From positions 1-25,661 of IMG/VR virus record IMGVR_UViG_3300031629_000069: a stretch of DNA of 25,661 nucleotides. One strand, given 5' to 3'. The notes under the pieces were generated by a model. The model was not told the origin of the DNA, made no database searches, and was given only the letters and a program-made list of their open reading frames with translations. The DNA is from a virus. Both the position numbers and the translations under genes were made by a program. The first letter of the stretch is position 1. Each line of letters opens with the position of its first letter. Of the stretch, positions 18,256 through 25,246 are shown in pieces.

Positions 18256-18937
18256 GGGCTATATATATGTGGCTTCCTTCAGGAAAGAATACTACAATGC
18301 TGCCAAAATTTCTGCTGAATCTTTATTAGAATTTTATCCTGATGCTCAAATAACTCTGGTCACACAGGCAGAATGGGTAGAACCCACCGACATTGAACTG
18401 TTCAGTACGATCATAACAGAAGATGTACCAACAGATAATAGAGCCAAGCTATGGGCGTTATCACGCACCCCATATGATGTTACAATGTACATCGATGCGG
18501 ACACCTATATTCAAAGCGAGGATATAGAACATGTGTTTGATTTTATTGGTGATAATGATATCATCTTTACTAGAAACAGACCTTACAACTCCAAAATAAC
18601 CAAGTTGAATGACACTGAAGAGATGATCTATCACTGTGGTATTTTTGTTTATCGCAAGAATGACACGATGAAATATCTAACAGATGATTGGTATAAGCAA
18701 TACTTAATACAAATTACACCAGAGTATGATGTCAGTCCTTATCCAGAAAAAGTAAAACCATGGGACACATTTACTATGTGGTGGCTACTGAATAAGACAG
18801 CACATAAATATTCGGTTAAAGTTGGAGAGTTTCCTGCGCCGGATGCAAGGTGGAATTTTTGTATGGGTCAGAAGCCAGAAGAACTTGATGGTCAAGAAAT
18901 AGTAATTACACACTATAGAATGAAGCACCAACACTAG
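18248..18937 (+). CDS. Glycosyltransferase, DxD (GT-A fold) type
   Basis: From the ATG at 18248 the product has 229 residues. The nucleotide-sugar metal-binding motif is M-Y-I-D-A-D-T-Y with D83 and D85, preceded by a region that reads as GT-A strands (G-Y-I-Y-V-A-S, then A-Q-I-T-L-V-T-Q). A late W-D-T-F segment and H-Y near the C-terminus fit the acceptor and metal-ligand positions of family-8-like transferases. I chose 18248 rather than the in-frame ATG at 18197 because the longer form adds a non-homologous extension deep inside the upstream gene. It differs from the minus-strand transferases (DAD rather than DLD, no K-W-G-x-K-Y start). Its stop shares a CTAG palindrome with the stop of the convergent oxygenase gene. 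Confidence 0.85.
   Translation: MSRGYIYVASFRKEYYNAAKISAESLLEFYPDAQITLVTQAEWVEPTDIELFSTIITEDVPTDNRAKLWALSRTPYDVTMYIDADTYIQSEDIEHVFDFIGDNDIIFTRNRPYNSKITKLNDTEEMIYHCGIFVYRKNDTMKYLTDDWYKQYLIQITPEYDVSPYPEKVKPWDTFTMWWLLNKTAHKYSVKVGEFPAPDARWNFCMGQKPEELDGQEIVITHYRMKHQH
18934..18937. other. CTAG palindrome giving both convergent genes their stop codons
   Basis: Bases 18935-18937 are the TAG stop of the + strand glycosyltransferase and the complement of 18934-18936 is the TAG stop of the - strand oxygenase. The two genes overlap tail to tail by four bases, so no intergenic terminator can exist here. Confidence 0.95.
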
Positions 18938-19572
18938 CCTTCTATGTCTTCTATCATCATCTCCCACATATCTTTATGTGGAATAACAAATCCCAGAGTC
19001 TGTCTAGGAGAGTCTGAGCCTGCACAATGCCAGTAGTGTAAGTCCTCAGACTCTTTTTTGCCACCATAATAACCTACTTTACAAGACCATCCTATTGTGT
19101 CTTTCATGGTTATAATTTCTTTCGTCACCGAGTCACGATACCGGAAGAATCCTTTTCCATCTGGGCTGTGACTTATTAGAATATTATATCCCGGACAGTC
19201 CCAGTTGTTATGCCATCCCATGAATCCACCAGTTGGATAATAAACATGTACTGCATTGAACTTAGCACCAAGAAACTCCAGAAGTTCGTCACATAGTTCA
19301 GCCGATTTGTTTCTAAACTTAACTGGCACGAGTGGAGTATATTGAAAATCTGTCACTAGTGCGACTTCTGGAATTCCACCGTGTGAGTCTTTCATCACTG
19401 ATTCTAGATACTCAGTTGATGTCGCGCTTGCTAAAGTATGTCCCTCTATTCTTTTTTCATCGATTGGCAGTTTTAATCTTCCGTGACCGAAGTTCACAGC
19501 TTGGTCAAACCATTTTGTATATTCATCTAGTATGACAAGCAGTTCGGGAGACATTTTCTTTAATAGTCTCAT
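18934..19572 (-). CDS. 2OG-Fe(II) oxygenase-like protein
   Basis: The 212-residue product resembles phage 2-oxoglutarate/Fe(II)-dependent oxygenases, which hydroxylate proteins, sugars or small molecules. The first ligand region is Y-Y-P-T-G-G-F-M-G-W-H-N-N-W-D with H121; the expected HxD appears as H121-N-N123. The distal part is Y-W-H-C-A-G with H182, then P-R-Q-T-L-G-F with R190 as the likely 2OG-binding arginine. A double-stranded beta-helix core is suggested by the strands between (Y-N-I-L-I-S-H-S, G-F-F-R-Y-R-D). It is the last gene of the minus-strand operon and begins in the TAATG overlap with the methyltransferase gene. Substrate is unknown; context suggests modification of a glycan or virion protein. 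HxN could mean altered metal binding. Confidence 0.78.
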   Translation of the reverse strand: MRLLKKMSPELLVILDEYTKWFDQAVNFGHGRLKLPIDEKRIEGHTLASATSTEYLESVMKDSHGGIPEVALVTDFQYTPLVPVKFRNKSAELCDELLEFLGAKFNAVHVYYPTGGFMGWHNNWDCPGYNILISHSPDGKGFFRYRDSVTKEIITMKDTIGWSCKVGYYGGKKESEDLHYWHCAGSDSPRQTLGFVIPHKDMWEMMIEDIEG

Positions 19573-20267
19573 TAGAAGAATCCTTCTCGTTGACCTATAA
19601 TCATAAATCGGTCATATTCTTTCTTGCCATCCCACGAGTAGTATGTCTGTTTCTTTGTTCCTTCAAACCCAACTTCATCAATTCCGACTTGTTCTTTGAG
19701 ATCATCTAGACTACTCACGCAGTTAATACCGTACATCTCTTCAACCACGTTTGAATTCTGCACGGCTAGTATTGCCTGTGGATTCTTAGTGGTTAGTTCT
19801 TTCAATGGATACATCTGCTCCGTACATATACAGATAACTAAGTCAACATCAATTTTATTCAGATTATCAAACTCAAATGGAACATCTAGATTCCAGTGAC
19901 GTATGTTGATGAACTTTTCCTGTGCGTAGTGTTTGTGAAAAATCTTTGATAGTTCAATTGACTCTTCATCAATGTCTACTAGATGCAATTGTGCAACATC
20001 AAGATTCTCGCATAGTAGTGGTACGAGTGGAATACCTAACCAAGAGTTGAGTATCAACACACGCAATGATCCAGTCTTGGCGTAATACTCTTCAATATAC
20101 TTTTGCACTTCCTCTACTAGCCAAGTAGATGCTTCCATATTGTTGGCGTCAAGAGATTGTCTGAAATCAGTTAACTTATGTGGCATCTTTGCTTCAATCA
20201 CGGAGAGACCTTCTCCCCAGTTCTTGAAGTTATTCAGAAAATTGTAGTTTAAATTAGAACTTGACAT
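19572..20267 (-). CDS. Class I SAM-dependent methyltransferase-like protein
   Basis: From the chosen ATG at 20267 the product has 231 residues. Motif I is degenerate: L-R-V-L-I-L-N-S-W-L-G-I-P at residues 68-80 lacks the usual G-x-G-x-G. The acidic residue after strand 2 is present (L-H-L-V-D-I-D, D98), followed by a helix, then N-I-R-H-W-N-L-D-V-P and a strand-4 segment V-D-L-V-I-C-I-C-T-E-Q-M. This is a Rossmann methyltransferase layout as found in marine T4-like phages. A longer reading to 20324 would add a hydrophobic leader inside the upstream gene and was rejected; the shorter start has GTGAAG just upstream and overlaps the preceding gene by 14 bases. Methyl acceptor unknown; a sugar is plausible among glycosyltransferases. 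Confidence 0.75.
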   Translation of the reverse strand: MSSSNLNYNFLNNFKNWGEGLSVIEAKMPHKLTDFRQSLDANNMEASTWLVEEVQKYIEEYYAKTGSLRVLILNSWLGIPLVPLLCENLDVAQLHLVDIDEESIELSKIFHKHYAQEKFINIRHWNLDVPFEFDNLNKIDVDLVICICTEQMYPLKELTTKNPQAILAVQNSNVVEEMYGINCVSSLDDLKEQVGIDEVGFEGTKKQTYYSWDGKKEYDRFMIIGQREGFF

Positions 20268-20931
20268 CTTCACTTTTCCCCATTGAGTCAAAAATACATA
20301 TGTAAGGCAGATCACGATACACATGCTTCTCTGTGTCGTGTGGATAAATATATCCCTGATTGAAGCTGTAGACCCAACCTATGGGAAACAGTTTCATCTT
20401 TACTATTCTGCGGTTGTAAAAGAAGTTATCTAGACCACGATAATACCATAATATTTGTGACTTGTACTTATTAAAATAATCGAATATCTCACTACTATTT
20501 AGACTGTCATTCCATCTAAGAACAGATGAGTTTAAGTCTGTATATTTGTGTTTGATATGTCGGGTGTCTTTGAATTGTGTTTCTAGGTCGTGCCAGAATG
20601 TCTTCACGAAGCACAGACTGTCATCACATGGATAGTTCACAATATCATCAATGTTCTTCTGTAGAATAACGTCCAGGTCAAAGAACAACTTTTCACCTTT
20701 CTGTGTCACAATGTCCTCATCAAAAAGATACATTTTATTCCACCACTTTACTAGTTTGTTGCCAGCAGGGAACGCAAGAATTTTTATATCTTCATGTATG
20801 TCTTTTGCATCTTCTGTTAGACAGTGTAATACAAAATCGCAACTTATGTGTTGCTTGCACGTTTCATATAGCTGATTCACATGAGAAGCAACATACTTGT
20901 TGCCCCATTTAACGGTATAGATATTCAACAT
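20254..20931 (-). CDS. Glycosyltransferase, DLD type (paralogue 4)
   Basis: The 225-residue product has the GT-A pattern shared by the minus-strand set: Y-T-V-K-W-G-N-K-Y near the N-terminus, the metal-binding F-F-D-L-D-V-I-L-Q with D85 and D87, then D-L-N-S-S-V-L-R-W, G-L-D-N-F-F-Y-N-R-R and G-W-V-Y-S-F-N-Q-G near the C-terminus. It is expected to transfer a sugar from a nucleotide-sugar donor in the cytoplasm; donor and acceptor cannot be deduced. It is separated from the upstream transferase gene by one base and overlaps the methyltransferase gene by 14. Its length equals a bare catalytic domain, with no extra binding module. Confidence 0.85.
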   Translation of the reverse strand: MLNIYTVKWGNKYVASHVNQLYETCKQHISCDFVLHCLTEDAKDIHEDIKILAFPAGNKLVKWWNKMYLFDEDIVTQKGEKLFFDLDVILQKNIDDIVNYPCDDSLCFVKTFWHDLETQFKDTRHIKHKYTDLNSSVLRWNDSLNSSEIFDYFNKYKSQILWYYRGLDNFFYNRRIVKMKLFPIGWVYSFNQGYIYPHDTEKHVYRDLPYICIFDSMGKSEDVKF

Positions 20932-20932
20932 A

Positions 20933-21745
20933 TTATCGCCAGTGTGCCAATAGTTCTGGATTTACTAAGTCATCTTGTTTAGTGCTTCCGCGACTTGCAT
21001 CTTCAAACGGTAGAAGATCAATGTTGAAAACACATACGATGCAATTAGGTCTGTACTTCTCAATAGTTAAATCATCTTCATCCCAAGATCGACCTCTATT
21101 CCAAGAGTATGCCATCCAAGATGGAAAGTGATCCCATAGATTCTCACCATATCTACCCCACTTCCAAGAGTGATAGTTGTCAGTGCCATCTGTGTATGTG
21201 AACCATATCTTTTCTTGATTTTCTAGTACGTCTTCCCATATACATTCACACTGATCATCTGACCACACTTTACATGAGCCATTTGTATATGCTCCATGTG
21301 ATAGTTTGAATCTTCTTGTTTTCATTGGTCTTGGATCTTGCCAATGGGATTGCATCTTTGTAGGTCTTTCCATATTATATGTAATTATAGGAGTTAGATC
21401 GCCTTGAATAATTACGTCCAAATCGAAAAATATGAAGCGACCGCTAGGTTTGTCAGGAGCAAAATTATGACTATTAAACACAAAAGTTTTTGCTCTGTCC
21501 CAACACCTTGCCATTCCGTACTTAAAATCTTCCGCACCAAACCAATACTTAGGATGAATATTAGGAATATCAGGAAAATCGATAATAGTAACATCGTCAT
21601 CTATACCTTCTGCGTCATCAGTATAGCAATAGAAATGAAAGTCAAATTGACTTGGTATATTTCTTTTTGCCATCTCTTTTAATTTGTTTACAAAGTGAGG
21701 ACCATATTTAGTTCCCCACTTAGCGCATACCACATTAACTCTCAT
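20933..21745 (-). CDS. Glycosyltransferase, DLD type (paralogue 3)
   Basis: The 270-residue product shares the set's layout: V-C-A-K-W-G-T-K-Y at the start, I-H-P-K-Y-W-F-G at about 63-70, C-W-D-R-A-K at 81-86, then F-F-D-L-D-V-I-I-Q-G-D with D108 and D110. Later blocks are G-T-D-N-Y-H-S-W and W-M-A-Y-S-W-N-R-G. H-P-K-Y-W-F-G and C-W-D-R-A-K are also in the 832-residue fusion, making the two each other's closest relatives here. It differs in having Y-T-N-G-S-C-K-V-W where the others have N-S-S-V-x-x-W. Its ATG overlaps the stop of the fusion gene by four bases (ATGA), the usual sign of coupled translation. Confidence 0.86.
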   Translation of the reverse strand: MRVNVVCAKWGTKYGPHFVNKLKEMAKRNIPSQFDFHFYCYTDDAEGIDDDVTIIDFPDIPNIHPKYWFGAEDFKYGMARCWDRAKTFVFNSHNFAPDKPSGRFIFFDLDVIIQGDLTPIITYNMERPTKMQSHWQDPRPMKTRRFKLSHGAYTNGSCKVWSDDQCECIWEDVLENQEKIWFTYTDGTDNYHSWKWGRYGENLWDHFPSWMAYSWNRGRSWDEDDLTIEKYRPNCIVCVFNIDLLPFEDASRGSTKQDDLVNPELLAHWR

Positions 21746-24240
21746 TTACATTTTCCACAGTTCTGTACGCATACATTCAGAGGTCTTCTTTTAAGTTGTT
21801 CGCTCACATTTTGAAAGTCACTGTTATCTAACACCTCGCCCACAGTGAAGTTAGCAAGACTATTATAACGCATATTGAATGGATAGTCAATAGGATGATA
21901 AGGTAAAAATTTATTCTCCATAACATCTCTCGCAATAAATGCACACGGAGATGCCACACTGTTGCTACTCACATAAAAATATCCACTCTTTCTTGCATCA
22001 CACCACACAGGATCTTTCTCTTTCATCTTGGGCTTCACTGTTCTGATTTCATCGGTATGTCTAAATGATTTCAGTGTATTGAAGTCTACTGGTATGTCTT
22101 TGTGTATGATAGTCTGTATCTTTTCTTCTGTCTCTGTCTGTTGTTTAGGTGCCACGACTTCAATTGTGTCCACATAATCGTATGTACCGGACGCAAAGGT
22201 CTGTAGATGTACAGTCACCTTTTTCTCCTTGAAGTATTTGCATATAGCCTCAAACTGCATACAGTTGACAGGATCAGTTATCTCGCACATGAATGTTACC
22301 CACGATACATTATAGCTGTCAAATATGTTTCTGATAGTCTTTAAGGTATGCTCATACCCGTCTACAAATATATCATTGAACTCAATGCCGCTATCGTTCT
22401 GCCTAGTTGATAGCTGAATCAATGCACCATTTGGCGCGCCATCTTCATATAGACCCCTGTAGAGATCACTGTACTGCTCACCATGCATCGAGAAGTATTT
22501 TATGAGTGTGTTACTATCATCATCTTTCTGATTAAGTATGGTTAATAGTTCTTCTTTGGGCATGATGTTATATAGACGTTCAAAGACTTGTTCATAGTCT
22601 TCTTTATAGAACAGTTCTTTTAGATAATCCATATAATATTTCTTATACAGACTTTGAATCTCTGACTCAGATGAGTCCCAAAATATTCTCTGTATGCCAA
22701 ACTTGGAGATATTGTCCATGTAGTCTTTCTTTATCGCGGGAAGGGTGTTCTTATTCCAGAGTCTACGATATAGGGCAAGACATTGTAACCTGCTTATGTT
22801 CCAGAAATATCTCACAATACCATGTTCTTTTGCTTCATCAGCTACTACGTCATGCATTTTGACAATGTATCTACTTTTGTATATACCGTATATTTCTTCA
22901 GCGGTCTTATTCCAGTATAGTGATTGATCACCTTTCTGTATGTGATCATCATCTGGAAAGTCAGAACAGAATTTGAGATGCATCGAAAGCATATCACCAG
23001 ACTCATATAGTTCTTGTATCTGTGGTCGGTGATGTTTCTGAATCTGTTTTATAAATTTAATATCGGATATTTCACGCTCAAGTTCTGGAATATCTTTCTT
23101 GATGGTTGTGACTGTGCCTAGTAGTTGTGACTGTAACTCTGGAAAGTCTCCCATAAACTTATCAGCAAGAGATGCTAGGTCATTTTCGCTCAGTAGTTTC
23201 TCAATGTCTGCAATCACCTCAGAATTCATGTAGTTCTTTTCTAGATCAGAATCGTCAAGTGATGAGAATCCAAGCCACTCTTTCAGTGTGGCGAATTTGG
23301 TTGAGTATTGCAGCCAGTCATTATGTAGACTTGGCAAGTCTTTCTGAAATTTAGCTTGCAGAGTATCGTAGTCCGAATTGCGGAGAAGTGCTTTCACCTT
23401 TTCAGTGTGTTTATTGTGTGTGAAAAAGTTAGATGGAAACTTAGGCAGCCATAGATTCTCAAACTCATCTTTGCCATGCCAATGAATTAGCAGATTGTAG
23501 TTCTTTAATTCATGTGGCTTTACACCAATGGTATTCTTGCCCCTCACATCGACATTGAACAAGGCAAACTTAGCCTTCTCTCTGTACAATTTCTCTGTTA
23601 AGTCTTCTGGATACTGCTGTCCTCTATTATAAGAGTACACCCAATCAGCGGGCAAGAAGCTCCAGTAGTTATCTCCAACTACATCGTGTTCTCTGTAAGG
23701 ATAATAATTGTCGGTGCCTTTGAAGAAGGTTTGGAATACAGTATCTTTATGTTTCAGCACATCATTATAAATCTTTTCACCTTGATCGGTGCACCATAAC
23801 ATGACGCTAGAGTTGTACAGTGATCCACGTACATCCGTGAAACGTCTGTCTCGCAACACTTCAGGATTCTCCCAATTAGAATAAATCATGTGGGGAGATT
23901 TGGCTAGCTCGTCTATTTCATCGATGTTGTTTTGGATGATAATGTCGAGGTCTAAATAGCAGAATGGACCTTTTGTCTTTAGCCATATATGAGAGTTGAG
24001 TACTAGAAACTTGGCTCTGTCCCAACAGTGATTCTCTCTACCGAACCAGTATTTTGGATGTAGGGGGTTTACGTCTGGTATAGATCGTACTGTGATGTGT
24101 TTATTAAGCCCAGCGGGCTCATCCGTATAGCATACGAATTTGAAACGCTTTGAATAATTGCGTTTGATCATTCCATGAAGGTTGTTTACATAATCAGGGG
24201 AGTACTTGTTGCCCCATTTCATGCAGATAAAGTGCATCAT
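21742..24240 (-). CDS. Glycosyltransferase fused to helical repeats and a cysteine-less radical-SAM/SPASM-like domain
   Basis: The 832-residue product has three parts. Residues 1-265 are a DLD transferase (C-M-K-W-G-N-K-Y, H-P-K-Y-W-F-G, C-W-D-R-A-K, D97/D99, N-S-S-V-M-L-W, G-T-D-N-Y-Y, W-V-Y-S-Y-N-R-G). Residues 280-600 are helical and repetitive. Residues 604-832 look like a shortened radical-SAM protein: strand A-L-I-Q-L-S-T-R, then Q614-x3-G618-x2-F621 where CX3CX2C is expected, a strand F-M-C-E-I-T-D-P (650-657) in the place of the G-E motif, V-T-V-H-L-Q-T, and a SPASM-like end with C747, C766, C824, C828 and C831. C747-x13-S-x4-C766 fits the SPASM entry motif except for Gly to Ser. The SAM cluster appears lost, so the module is probably non-catalytic or binding. 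The ATG at 24240 lies inside the upstream transferase gene, overlapping it by 47 bases. Confidence 0.85.
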   Translation of the reverse strand: MMHFICMKWGNKYSPDYVNNLHGMIKRNYSKRFKFVCYTDEPAGLNKHITVRSIPDVNPLHPKYWFGRENHCWDRAKFLVLNSHIWLKTKGPFCYLDLDIIIQNNIDEIDELAKSPHMIYSNWENPEVLRDRRFTDVRGSLYNSSVMLWCTDQGEKIYNDVLKHKDTVFQTFFKGTDNYYPYREHDVVGDNYWSFLPADWVYSYNRGQQYPEDLTEKLYREKAKFALFNVDVRGKNTIGVKPHELKNYNLLIHWHGKDEFENLWLPKFPSNFFTHNKHTEKVKALLRNSDYDTLQAKFQKDLPSLHNDWLQYSTKFATLKEWLGFSSLDDSDLEKNYMNSEVIADIEKLLSENDLASLADKFMGDFPELQSQLLGTVTTIKKDIPELEREISDIKFIKQIQKHHRPQIQELYESGDMLSMHLKFCSDFPDDDHIQKGDQSLYWNKTAEEIYGIYKSRYIVKMHDVVADEAKEHGIVRYFWNISRLQCLALYRRLWNKNTLPAIKKDYMDNISKFGIQRIFWDSSESEIQSLYKKYYMDYLKELFYKEDYEQVFERLYNIMPKEELLTILNQKDDDSNTLIKYFSMHGEQYSDLYRGLYEDGAPNGALIQLSTRQNDSGIEFNDIFVDGYEHTLKTIRNIFDSYNVSWVTFMCEITDPVNCMQFEAICKYFKEKKVTVHLQTFASGTYDYVDTIEVVAPKQQTETEEKIQTIIHKDIPVDFNTLKSFRHTDEIRTVKPKMKEKDPVWCDARKSGYFYVSSNSVASPCAFIARDVMENKFLPYHPIDYPFNMRYNSLANFTVGEVLDNSDFQNVSEQLKRRPLNVCVQNCGKCK

Positions 24241-24868
24241 ATTTTTGTCTCAGATTCTCTTCAATTTCACTCTGCCCGTTTAACAATACTATAGGATAAT
24301 CTGATTTCATTTGATACGCTCTGGGTGGGGTATCAGTCTGAACATCTACTCCGCATAGAAACGAGTAGATCAACCCCCTAGGAAACACAGCTTGGATCAA
24401 GTGTTCATTATATAAGAACCAATCATCATTATCAAGATATTTCGTGATGTAATAATCATCATTTTCTAAGAAGTATTTATACACATGCTGGGCACTATCA
24501 TTCTCCCATGCCATCACACTTGAATTATACTCAGTAGGAAACTCATCTTTGTTCTTCCAATATGTTTTGCAGATTGTTGGTGTTGAGCAATATTCAAACA
24601 GTGGTTCGATGTCTCCCTGAATAACAGTATCTAAATCTATATAAATAACTTTACCAAGATCTGGTATATTGAATAGTTCCAACTTCCTCCAATGGGATTC
24701 AAGCGACTCATCAAGCAAAACAGTCTTGATATTCGGATGGATGTGTGGCTGATTCTGGCGATCTGTTAAGCAGACGTAATTATATTTACCTTTTGTAGCC
24801 TTATAAATATAATCGACATCACTTGAACTATATTTATCACCATAAAGGAGTGTTAAAATAGTCTTCAT
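24194..24868 (-). CDS. Glycosyltransferase, DLD type (paralogue 1, operon head)
   Basis: From the ATG at 24868 the product has 224 residues: M-K-T-I-L-T-L-L-Y-G-D-K-Y matches the K-W-G-N-K-Y start of the other transferases. The metal-binding motif is I-Y-I-D-L-D-T-V-I-Q-G-D with D78 and D80; later come E-Y-N-S-S-V-M-A-W and R-G-L-I-Y-S-F. An in-frame ATG at 24949 would give a longer form, but that extension would run through the promoter and ribosome-binding site of the divergent gene at 24917 and has no family resemblance. GGGAG lies about 12 bases upstream of the chosen start. It is the first gene of the leftward operon; no clear late octamer was found upstream on this strand, so early or middle expression is possible. 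Confidence 0.83.
   Translation of the reverse strand: MKTILTLLYGDKYSSSDVDYIYKATKGKYNYVCLTDRQNQPHIHPNIKTVLLDESLESHWRKLELFNIPDLGKVIYIDLDTVIQGDIEPLFEYCSTPTICKTYWKNKDEFPTEYNSSVMAWENDSAQHVYKYFLENDDYYITKYLDNDDWFLYNEHLIQAVFPRGLIYSFLCGVDVQTDTPPRAYQMKSDYPIVLLNGQSEIEENLRQKYDALYLHEMGQQVLP
24474..24481 (-). promoter_or_regulatory. Candidate minus-strand late promoter octamer
   Basis: The plus strand reads TATTTATA, giving exact TATAAATA on the minus strand. It lies within the first transferase gene, about 234 bases before the start of the 832-residue gene. It is the only exact late octamer I found reading into the island; chance occurrence cannot be excluded. Confidence 0.35.
24802..24809 (+). promoter_or_regulatory. 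Candidate late promoter antisense to transferase paralogue 1
   Basis: Exact TATAAATA reading rightward inside the minus-strand gene. Predicted start near 24815, about 102 bases before the ATG at 24917; such a transcript would run antisense to the first 54 or so bases of the transferase gene and its ribosome-binding site. Confidence 0.4.
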
Positions 24869-24890
24869 ATTATAGCTAAACTCCCACAAT

Positions 24891-24898
24891 GATAAATA
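24891..24898 (+). promoter_or_regulatory. Late promoter variant upstream of the 109-residue gene
   Basis: GATAAATA in the 48-base divergent gap. Predicted start near 24904 coincides with the ribosome-binding site AAAGGAA at 24904-24910, six bases before the ATG at 24917. Confidence 0.5.
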
Positions 24899-24916
24899 CA
24901 TATAAAGGAAACTTGA

Positions 24917-25246
24917 ATGGCAACCATAGCAAATCTCACTATCGACCAAGGCACAACCGTAAGTATTGTTGTGCCTGTGAAGAACACCGATGGTACTGTG
25001 AAAGACCTAACTGGATATACAGCCTATTCGCAGTTTCGCAAAAGTTATTACTCTACTACTTATACGACCTTCACCGCGACTCACGATGACGCAGGAGGCA
25101 ATATAACACTTGCATTGACTGCAATTCAATCTAGTGCTGTAAAAGCAGGTAGATACGTCTATGATGTAGAGACACTAACAGGAACAACAGTAGCCAGGGT
25201 GCAAGAAGGCATTATCACAGTGAATCCAGAAGTCACGAAGGTTTAA
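24917..25246 (+). CDS. Small beta-sandwich virion protein next to the neck gene
   Basis: The 109-residue product has the layout N-L-T-I-D-Q-G-T-T, then D-L-T-G-Y-T-A-Y-S-Q-F-R-K-S-Y, a beta hairpin region, and A-G-R-Y-V-Y-D-V-E-T-L followed by R-V-Q-E-G-I-I-T-V-N-P-E-V-T. This arrangement is widespread in small tailed-phage proteins that resemble the immunoglobulin-like N-terminal domain of receptor-binding-protein holders such as BppU, and in marine T4-like phages it is found just upstream of neck genes. It occupies the position of T4 wac (fibritin) but has no coiled coil, so it is not wac. It ends 10 bases before the neck gene, whose ribosome-binding site AAGGAGA overlaps its stop. Structural role likely, exact place unknown. 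Confidence 0.82.
   Translation: MATIANLTIDQGTTVSIVVPVKNTDGTVKDLTGYTAYSQFRKSYYSTTYTTFTATHDDAGGNITLALTAIQSSAVKAGRYVYDVETLTGTTVARVQEGIITVNPEVTKV

Follow-up and report, generated by a model that had tools for sequence, protein, structure and literature searches.

The operon and its fusion gene

The window, that is the whole stretch of DNA analyzed, is a 25.7-kb virus fragment carrying T4-like baseplate genes, tail-fibre-type genes and a gene for a 2142-aa protein matching phrog_358, which is presumably VrlC given its position and size. The nearest counterparts of its gp6-like baseplate protein are those of Pelagibacter phage HTVC008M and Methylophilales phage Melnitz (34-35% identity), and the fragment probably comes from a pelagimyophage-type phage. 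In pelagimyophages, VrlC is followed by a host recognition cluster that is rich in GT8 glycosyltransferases (GT) and sometimes carries radical-SAM cassettes (PMC7029224).

The genes of interest form an operon, A-B-C-D-E (GT-fusion-GT-GT-methyltransferase-like), which is syntenic in the examined loci wherever the contig reaches far enough (Table 1). Beside it lies gene F (18934-19572, minus strand), which displays an HxxxD...H pattern (GWHNNWD...HCAGSDSPRQTLGF), has no match in Pfam and could, at a guess, code for a 2OG-Fe(II) oxygenase.

Table 1. Features of the operon, of gene B and of its counterparts in other loci (residue numbers refer to the gene B protein)
Feature	Position	Strand	Evidence
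Gene A, GT8-like glycosyltransferase	24194..24949	-	PF01501 and phrog_1962 matches; synteny
Gene B, whole fusion gene, 832 aa	21742..24240	-	open frame; full-length conservation in many marine viral contigs
GT8-like glycosyltransferase domain, residues 1-265	23446..24240	-	alignment A4 invariants; paralogy to adjoining GT genes
All-helical insert of variable length, residues 266-600	22441..23445	-	AF2 and length variants
First half of radical-SAM barrel (b1-a1-b2-a2-b3), cluster motif missing, residues 604-700	22141..22431	-	hmmsearch (profile 32-93), hhalign, AF2
Q614-F621 (QNDSGIEF), stretch read as substituted CX3CX2C	22378..22401	-	N615-D616 invariant, other residues variable
D656-P657, remnant of GNxGDP (GGEP-like) motif	22270..22275	-	D656 near-invariant, P657 invariant; aligned with GDP of intact relatives
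SPASM/twitch-like C-terminal part, residues 735-832	21745..22038	-	hmmsearch (profile 189-315); PF13186 in relatives
C747, first SPASM cysteine	22000..22002	-	37/37 modules
C766, second SPASM cysteine (first C of PCC in intact relatives)	21943..21945	-	37/37 modules and alignment
C824-X3-C828-X2-C831, SPASM tail cysteines	21748..21771	-	37/37 modules and alignment
Gene C, GT paralogue	20933..21745	-	40% identical to GT domain of B; syntenic
Gene D, GT paralogue	20254..20931	-	30% identical to GT domain of B; syntenic
Gene E, methyltransferase-like	19572..20324	-	weak Pfam match, E 0.014; syntenic
Sister-slot proteins, ~500 aa	L298 4392-5909, L325 4808-6301, L393 5722-7233	+	same operon slot, fuller barrel, SPASM end

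Gene B, which an earlier note had delimited from the open reading frame, is real and conserved, as borne out by the uninterrupted frame and by dozens of relatives in IMG/VR. These homologues measure 481, 735-739, 811-812, 837-842 or 911-916 aa and differ mainly in the middle region, the helical insert being longer in the 911-916-aa proteins and absent in L292, where the GT is joined straight to the C-terminal module. The AF2 model of the full-length protein is all helix at residues 280-540 (pLDDT about 75-90); a repeat structure considered for this middle region was dropped when a strict regular expression matched just two copies. Neither the whole protein nor a divergent version of the module had a match in INPHARED (50,697 phage records), in line with the earlier remark that no phage protein of this architecture had been described, and a pattern scan of GTDB bacterial genome contigs gave no relative. 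The combination of GT and module was likewise found neither in cultured phages nor in the titles and abstracts of the literature searched.

The transferase announced by a DLD motif in residues 1-265 is indeed present: D97-L-D99 and H253-W-H-G256 are invariant in alignment A4, corresponding to the DxD metal-binding and C-terminal HxG-type motifs of GT8. This domain shares 40%, 30% and 27% identity with the three adjoining GT genes. It has no match to PF01501, while its paralogue A reaches E 3.8e-5 (23.8 bits, below the cut-off of 24.3) and matches phrog_1962 at 1e-21. Sequence searches of the PDB with the GT domain and with the module returned nothing useful. The GT8 of pelagimyophages (PF01501; PMC7029224) is also a DxD-type enzyme located in the host recognition cluster after VrlC, but gene B differs from it by the additional C-terminal helical insert and pseudo-radical-SAM/SPASM module.

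A module related to radical-SAM/SPASM proteins

Residues 604-832 are homologous to phage radical-SAM/SPASM proteins. The first signs were a match to phrog_21308 and matches to PF13186 (SPASM) in relatives, above the cut-off in three related records (G005, G007 and G009), whereas the window copy scores nothing. Single-sequence scans of the window C-terminus against Pfam, NCBIfam and PHROG gave no radical-SAM match, nor did PF04055 match the window. A profile was built from 42 intact phage radical-SAM/SPASM proteins. With HMMER, all 23 modules (23/23) match it over two collinear stretches and score 46-61 bits, profile positions 32-93 corresponding to about residues 625-682 and positions 189-315 to the SPASM part. 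With hhalign, an alignment of 29 modules matches the same profile with a probability of 97.9% in local and 98.7% in global mode and an E of 5.7e-13, a value for a single comparison since two chosen profiles were compared; the maximum over 50 column-shuffled control runs was 3.3%. Profile searches, which the earlier note had proposed as a check, find the module's kinship through relatives and profile-profile methods, but not through single-sequence scans of the window. At the level of sequence profiles, these results confirm that the module derives from a phage radical-SAM/SPASM enzyme.

Radical-SAM genes with an intact CX3CX2C exist elsewhere in related phage genomes, some with a C-terminal SPASM. 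Those carrying CQARCPMC (for example L158 and L163) share with the module the b1-a1-b2-a2 region with GNxGDP and a SPASM with C..GxxxPC and a terminal C-x3-C, but their CX3CX2C is intact and their barrel full, and none of those examined is fused to a GT. The L116 and L122 relatives match phrog_21308. Other layouts were also observed. A 582-aa ORF in L116 (1450-3195, plus strand) codes for an intact radical-SAM that has SPASM at its C-terminal end and, behind it, an apparent short-chain dehydrogenase-like domain (TGNNRGLGLDL...YAIAKDAL), and in L122 (1471-2497) and L105 (639-1692), both on the plus strand, radical-SAM and SPASM lie on two overlapping ORFs (261-270 and 92 aa), as if split. The SPASM/twitch enzymes PqqE, SpeY and SuiB resemble the module in their SPASM-type cysteine arrangement and appear as weak Foldseek matches; unlike the module, they are catalytically active and have both CX3CX2C and a full barrel.

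The signature of the radical SAM superfamily (PF04055), a CX3CX2C on the loop after b1, is absent from the module, and none of the 37 distinct complete modules harbors it in the barrel part (first 90 aa), which answers the earlier question of whether any homologue keeps it. The stretch QNDSGIEF is present at residues 614-621, where it had been read as the motif in exact spacing with Q, G and F in place of the cysteines. This reading lacks support because these positions vary in the family (for example Q/R/H/I/T at 614, G/N/D/K at 618, F/Y at 621); what is conserved is N615, D616 and T/S617, with ND[TS] in 37/37 modules. A matching spacing in a stretch that holds no cysteine is no evidence in itself. 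Moreover, 47-48 residues separate the first cysteine from the residue before GNxGDP in intact relatives, against 38 from Q614 to C652, and both hhalign and MAFFT open a 9-residue gap opposite CX3CX2C and place Q614 after it. Q614, G618 and F621 are thus probably not substituted cysteines, and the motif region looks deleted. Aligners, however, favour a gap at this place because three mismatched cysteines cost much, and a substitution of the cysteines together with a nearby deletion may be an alternative. The asparagine said to be retained after the first cysteine is indeed invariant (N615), but it is a weak argument, the closest intact phage family having mostly Gln there (CQARCPMC).

The earlier note missed that the second barrel half is short of some 75-95 residues: profile positions 94-188 (~95) have a counterpart of just ~20 residues in the modules. 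Contrary to the partial TIM barrel proposed up to about residue 740, the homologous part stops near residue 690. At the end of b2, only DP is kept of GNxGDP (GGEP/GxxDP). In place of the (ba)6 partial TIM barrel of the superfamily, AF2 gives b1-a1-b2-a2-b3 plus a short strand. In the structure check suggested earlier, the module modelled alone has a mean pLDDT of 53.5, with about 70-93 over the b-a-b-a-b half barrel at residues 626-696; the SPASM part stays below 50, as does most of the GT part in the full-length model. Radical-SAM proteins rank high in Foldseek but E is never below 0.1 (PFL-activating enzyme, PqqE and SpeY at 0.1-0.3), and these matches were not used as proof because the AF2 models are good only at about residues 626-696 and 280-540.

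The SPASM end is much better preserved. The five cysteines listed in the earlier note (747, 766, 824, 828 and 831) are kept in 37/37 distinct modules, all of which display the pattern C-x17-20-PC...C-x3-CG-x-C. In the first SPASM motif, C-x(9-15)-G-x4-C, both cysteines are invariant and correctly spaced, the glycine being present in many relatives and replaced by Ser in the window. C824-C828-C831 reads C-X3-C-X2-C yet aligns with the SPASM tail and not with the SAM motif, a point that had escaped notice. Less certainly, the SPASM part may fold around one auxiliary Fe-S cluster or zinc ion, as suggested by cysteine conservation, on which we rely here because of the low AF2 confidence in this part.

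Variants of the operon slot

Three states of the slot were found in the scanned loci: a fused gene B, a GT-only B with a ~500-aa sister protein after it, and a GT-only B directly before C; no intact radical-SAM gene was found in the slot among these loci. The sister family comprises 36 distinct sequences, counted by the C-terminal part. Like the module, these proteins have a SPASM end, occupy the same operon position and have no CX3CX2C in the barrel region of the sequences aligned, but they differ by a fuller barrel, a separate gene and their own N-terminal ~200 aa. Compared with the profile of intact radical-SAM proteins, their last 300 aa reach a probability of 99.7%, over a stretch that starts immediately behind the motif region and extends into SPASM. 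Most retain only two or three SPASM cysteines, whereas the L393 sister keeps all five (tail CKLKCGAC); metal binding is therefore not required in every version. A GT-like nature of the sister N-terminus was considered but found no support (hhalign probability of just 12.6%). In a third group (L388, L392, L396 and L401) the operon has a GT-only B and no pseudo-radical-SAM module, and the module is thus not essential for the GT core. Since modules of this kind are either fused to the GT or encoded next to it, a joint action with the glycosyltransferase is probable, as gene fusion would suggest.

Possible roles of the module

We propose that gene B codes for a GT8-like glycosyltransferase whose C-terminal module descends from a phage radical-SAM/SPASM enzyme. 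The cluster motif and the second barrel half are gone from this module, and it would have lost the binding of the SAM [4Fe-4S] cluster and radical chemistry; the SPASM cysteines, like DP from GNxGDP, persist under strongly purifying selection. The earlier idea of an inactivated radical-SAM scaffold tethered to a transferase finds support in the profile homology, the missing motif and the invariant SPASM cysteines. More tentatively, the SPASM part would hold its cluster or zinc ion, and the module, most likely a part that docks an acceptor or a partner, would be a platform presenting an acceptor to the transferase; candidates could be a glycan intermediate, a peptide, or a protein of the virion, for instance one of the tail-fibre proteins encoded nearby. 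Such a targeting or acceptor-binding role is plausible, and fits the operon slot because modules of this kind occur there fused or as a neighbouring gene. We would give an even chance to the overall picture of a GT8-like transferase with a non-catalytic, radical-SAM/SPASM-derived module for acceptor docking. A somewhat lower one goes to the broader proposal that a radical-SAM/SPASM enzyme turned into a class of SPASM pseudoenzymes acting in acceptor docking, fused or separate in the slot, of which the fused form would be a half barrel with the auxiliary-cluster end.

The strict synteny with A, C, D and E and the occurrence of fused and separate forms within one slot could also be expected of a pure assembly scaffold for these enzymes that binds no acceptor, but the operon also occurs without the module, and we consider this explanation unlikely. 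The invariance of the five SPASM cysteines (37/37 modules) might instead reflect a redox or iron sensor, in which an oxygen-labile cluster switches the glycosyltransferase on and off; the loss of some of these cysteines in most sister proteins, and the fact that no precedent among SPASM domains was found in this analysis, make this rather improbable. It is highly improbable that the module has remained a radical-SAM enzyme by way of an unusual cluster on C824-C828-C831: the spacing is literally CX3CX2C, but what this segment aligns with in intact proteins is the SPASM tail, and these proteins carry a separate motif at the N-terminus as well; besides, the second barrel half is missing. Even less credible is a chance likeness, residues 604-832 adopting another fold, perhaps zinc-binding; the window sequence alone matches no Pfam radical-SAM/SPASM model and the Foldseek matches are weak, but the two collinear HMM segments, the hhalign probability far above its shuffled control, the match of the fuller-barrel sister family and the PF13186 hits in relatives all speak against it. 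Finally, the loss of the active-site motif and of half of the barrel might suggest a decaying, functionless remnant, the least likely explanation of all, contradicted by an intact frame, conservation in dozens of loci and strongly purifying selection (Nei-Gojobori omega of 0.028, 0.028, 0.055 and 0.071 in four close pairs over residues 601-832, similar to 0.028-0.082 for the GT domain).

The radical-SAM superfamily is among the largest enzyme superfamilies; the titles and abstracts returned by full-text literature searches described no pseudoenzyme of the module's kind. A conserved lineage that has lost the SAM cluster and kept SPASM would make the contribution of SPASM without radical chemistry, for example to substrate binding, accessible to testing. 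The module would, moreover, be a lead to the targets of glycosylation within the host-recognition region of marine T4-like phages.
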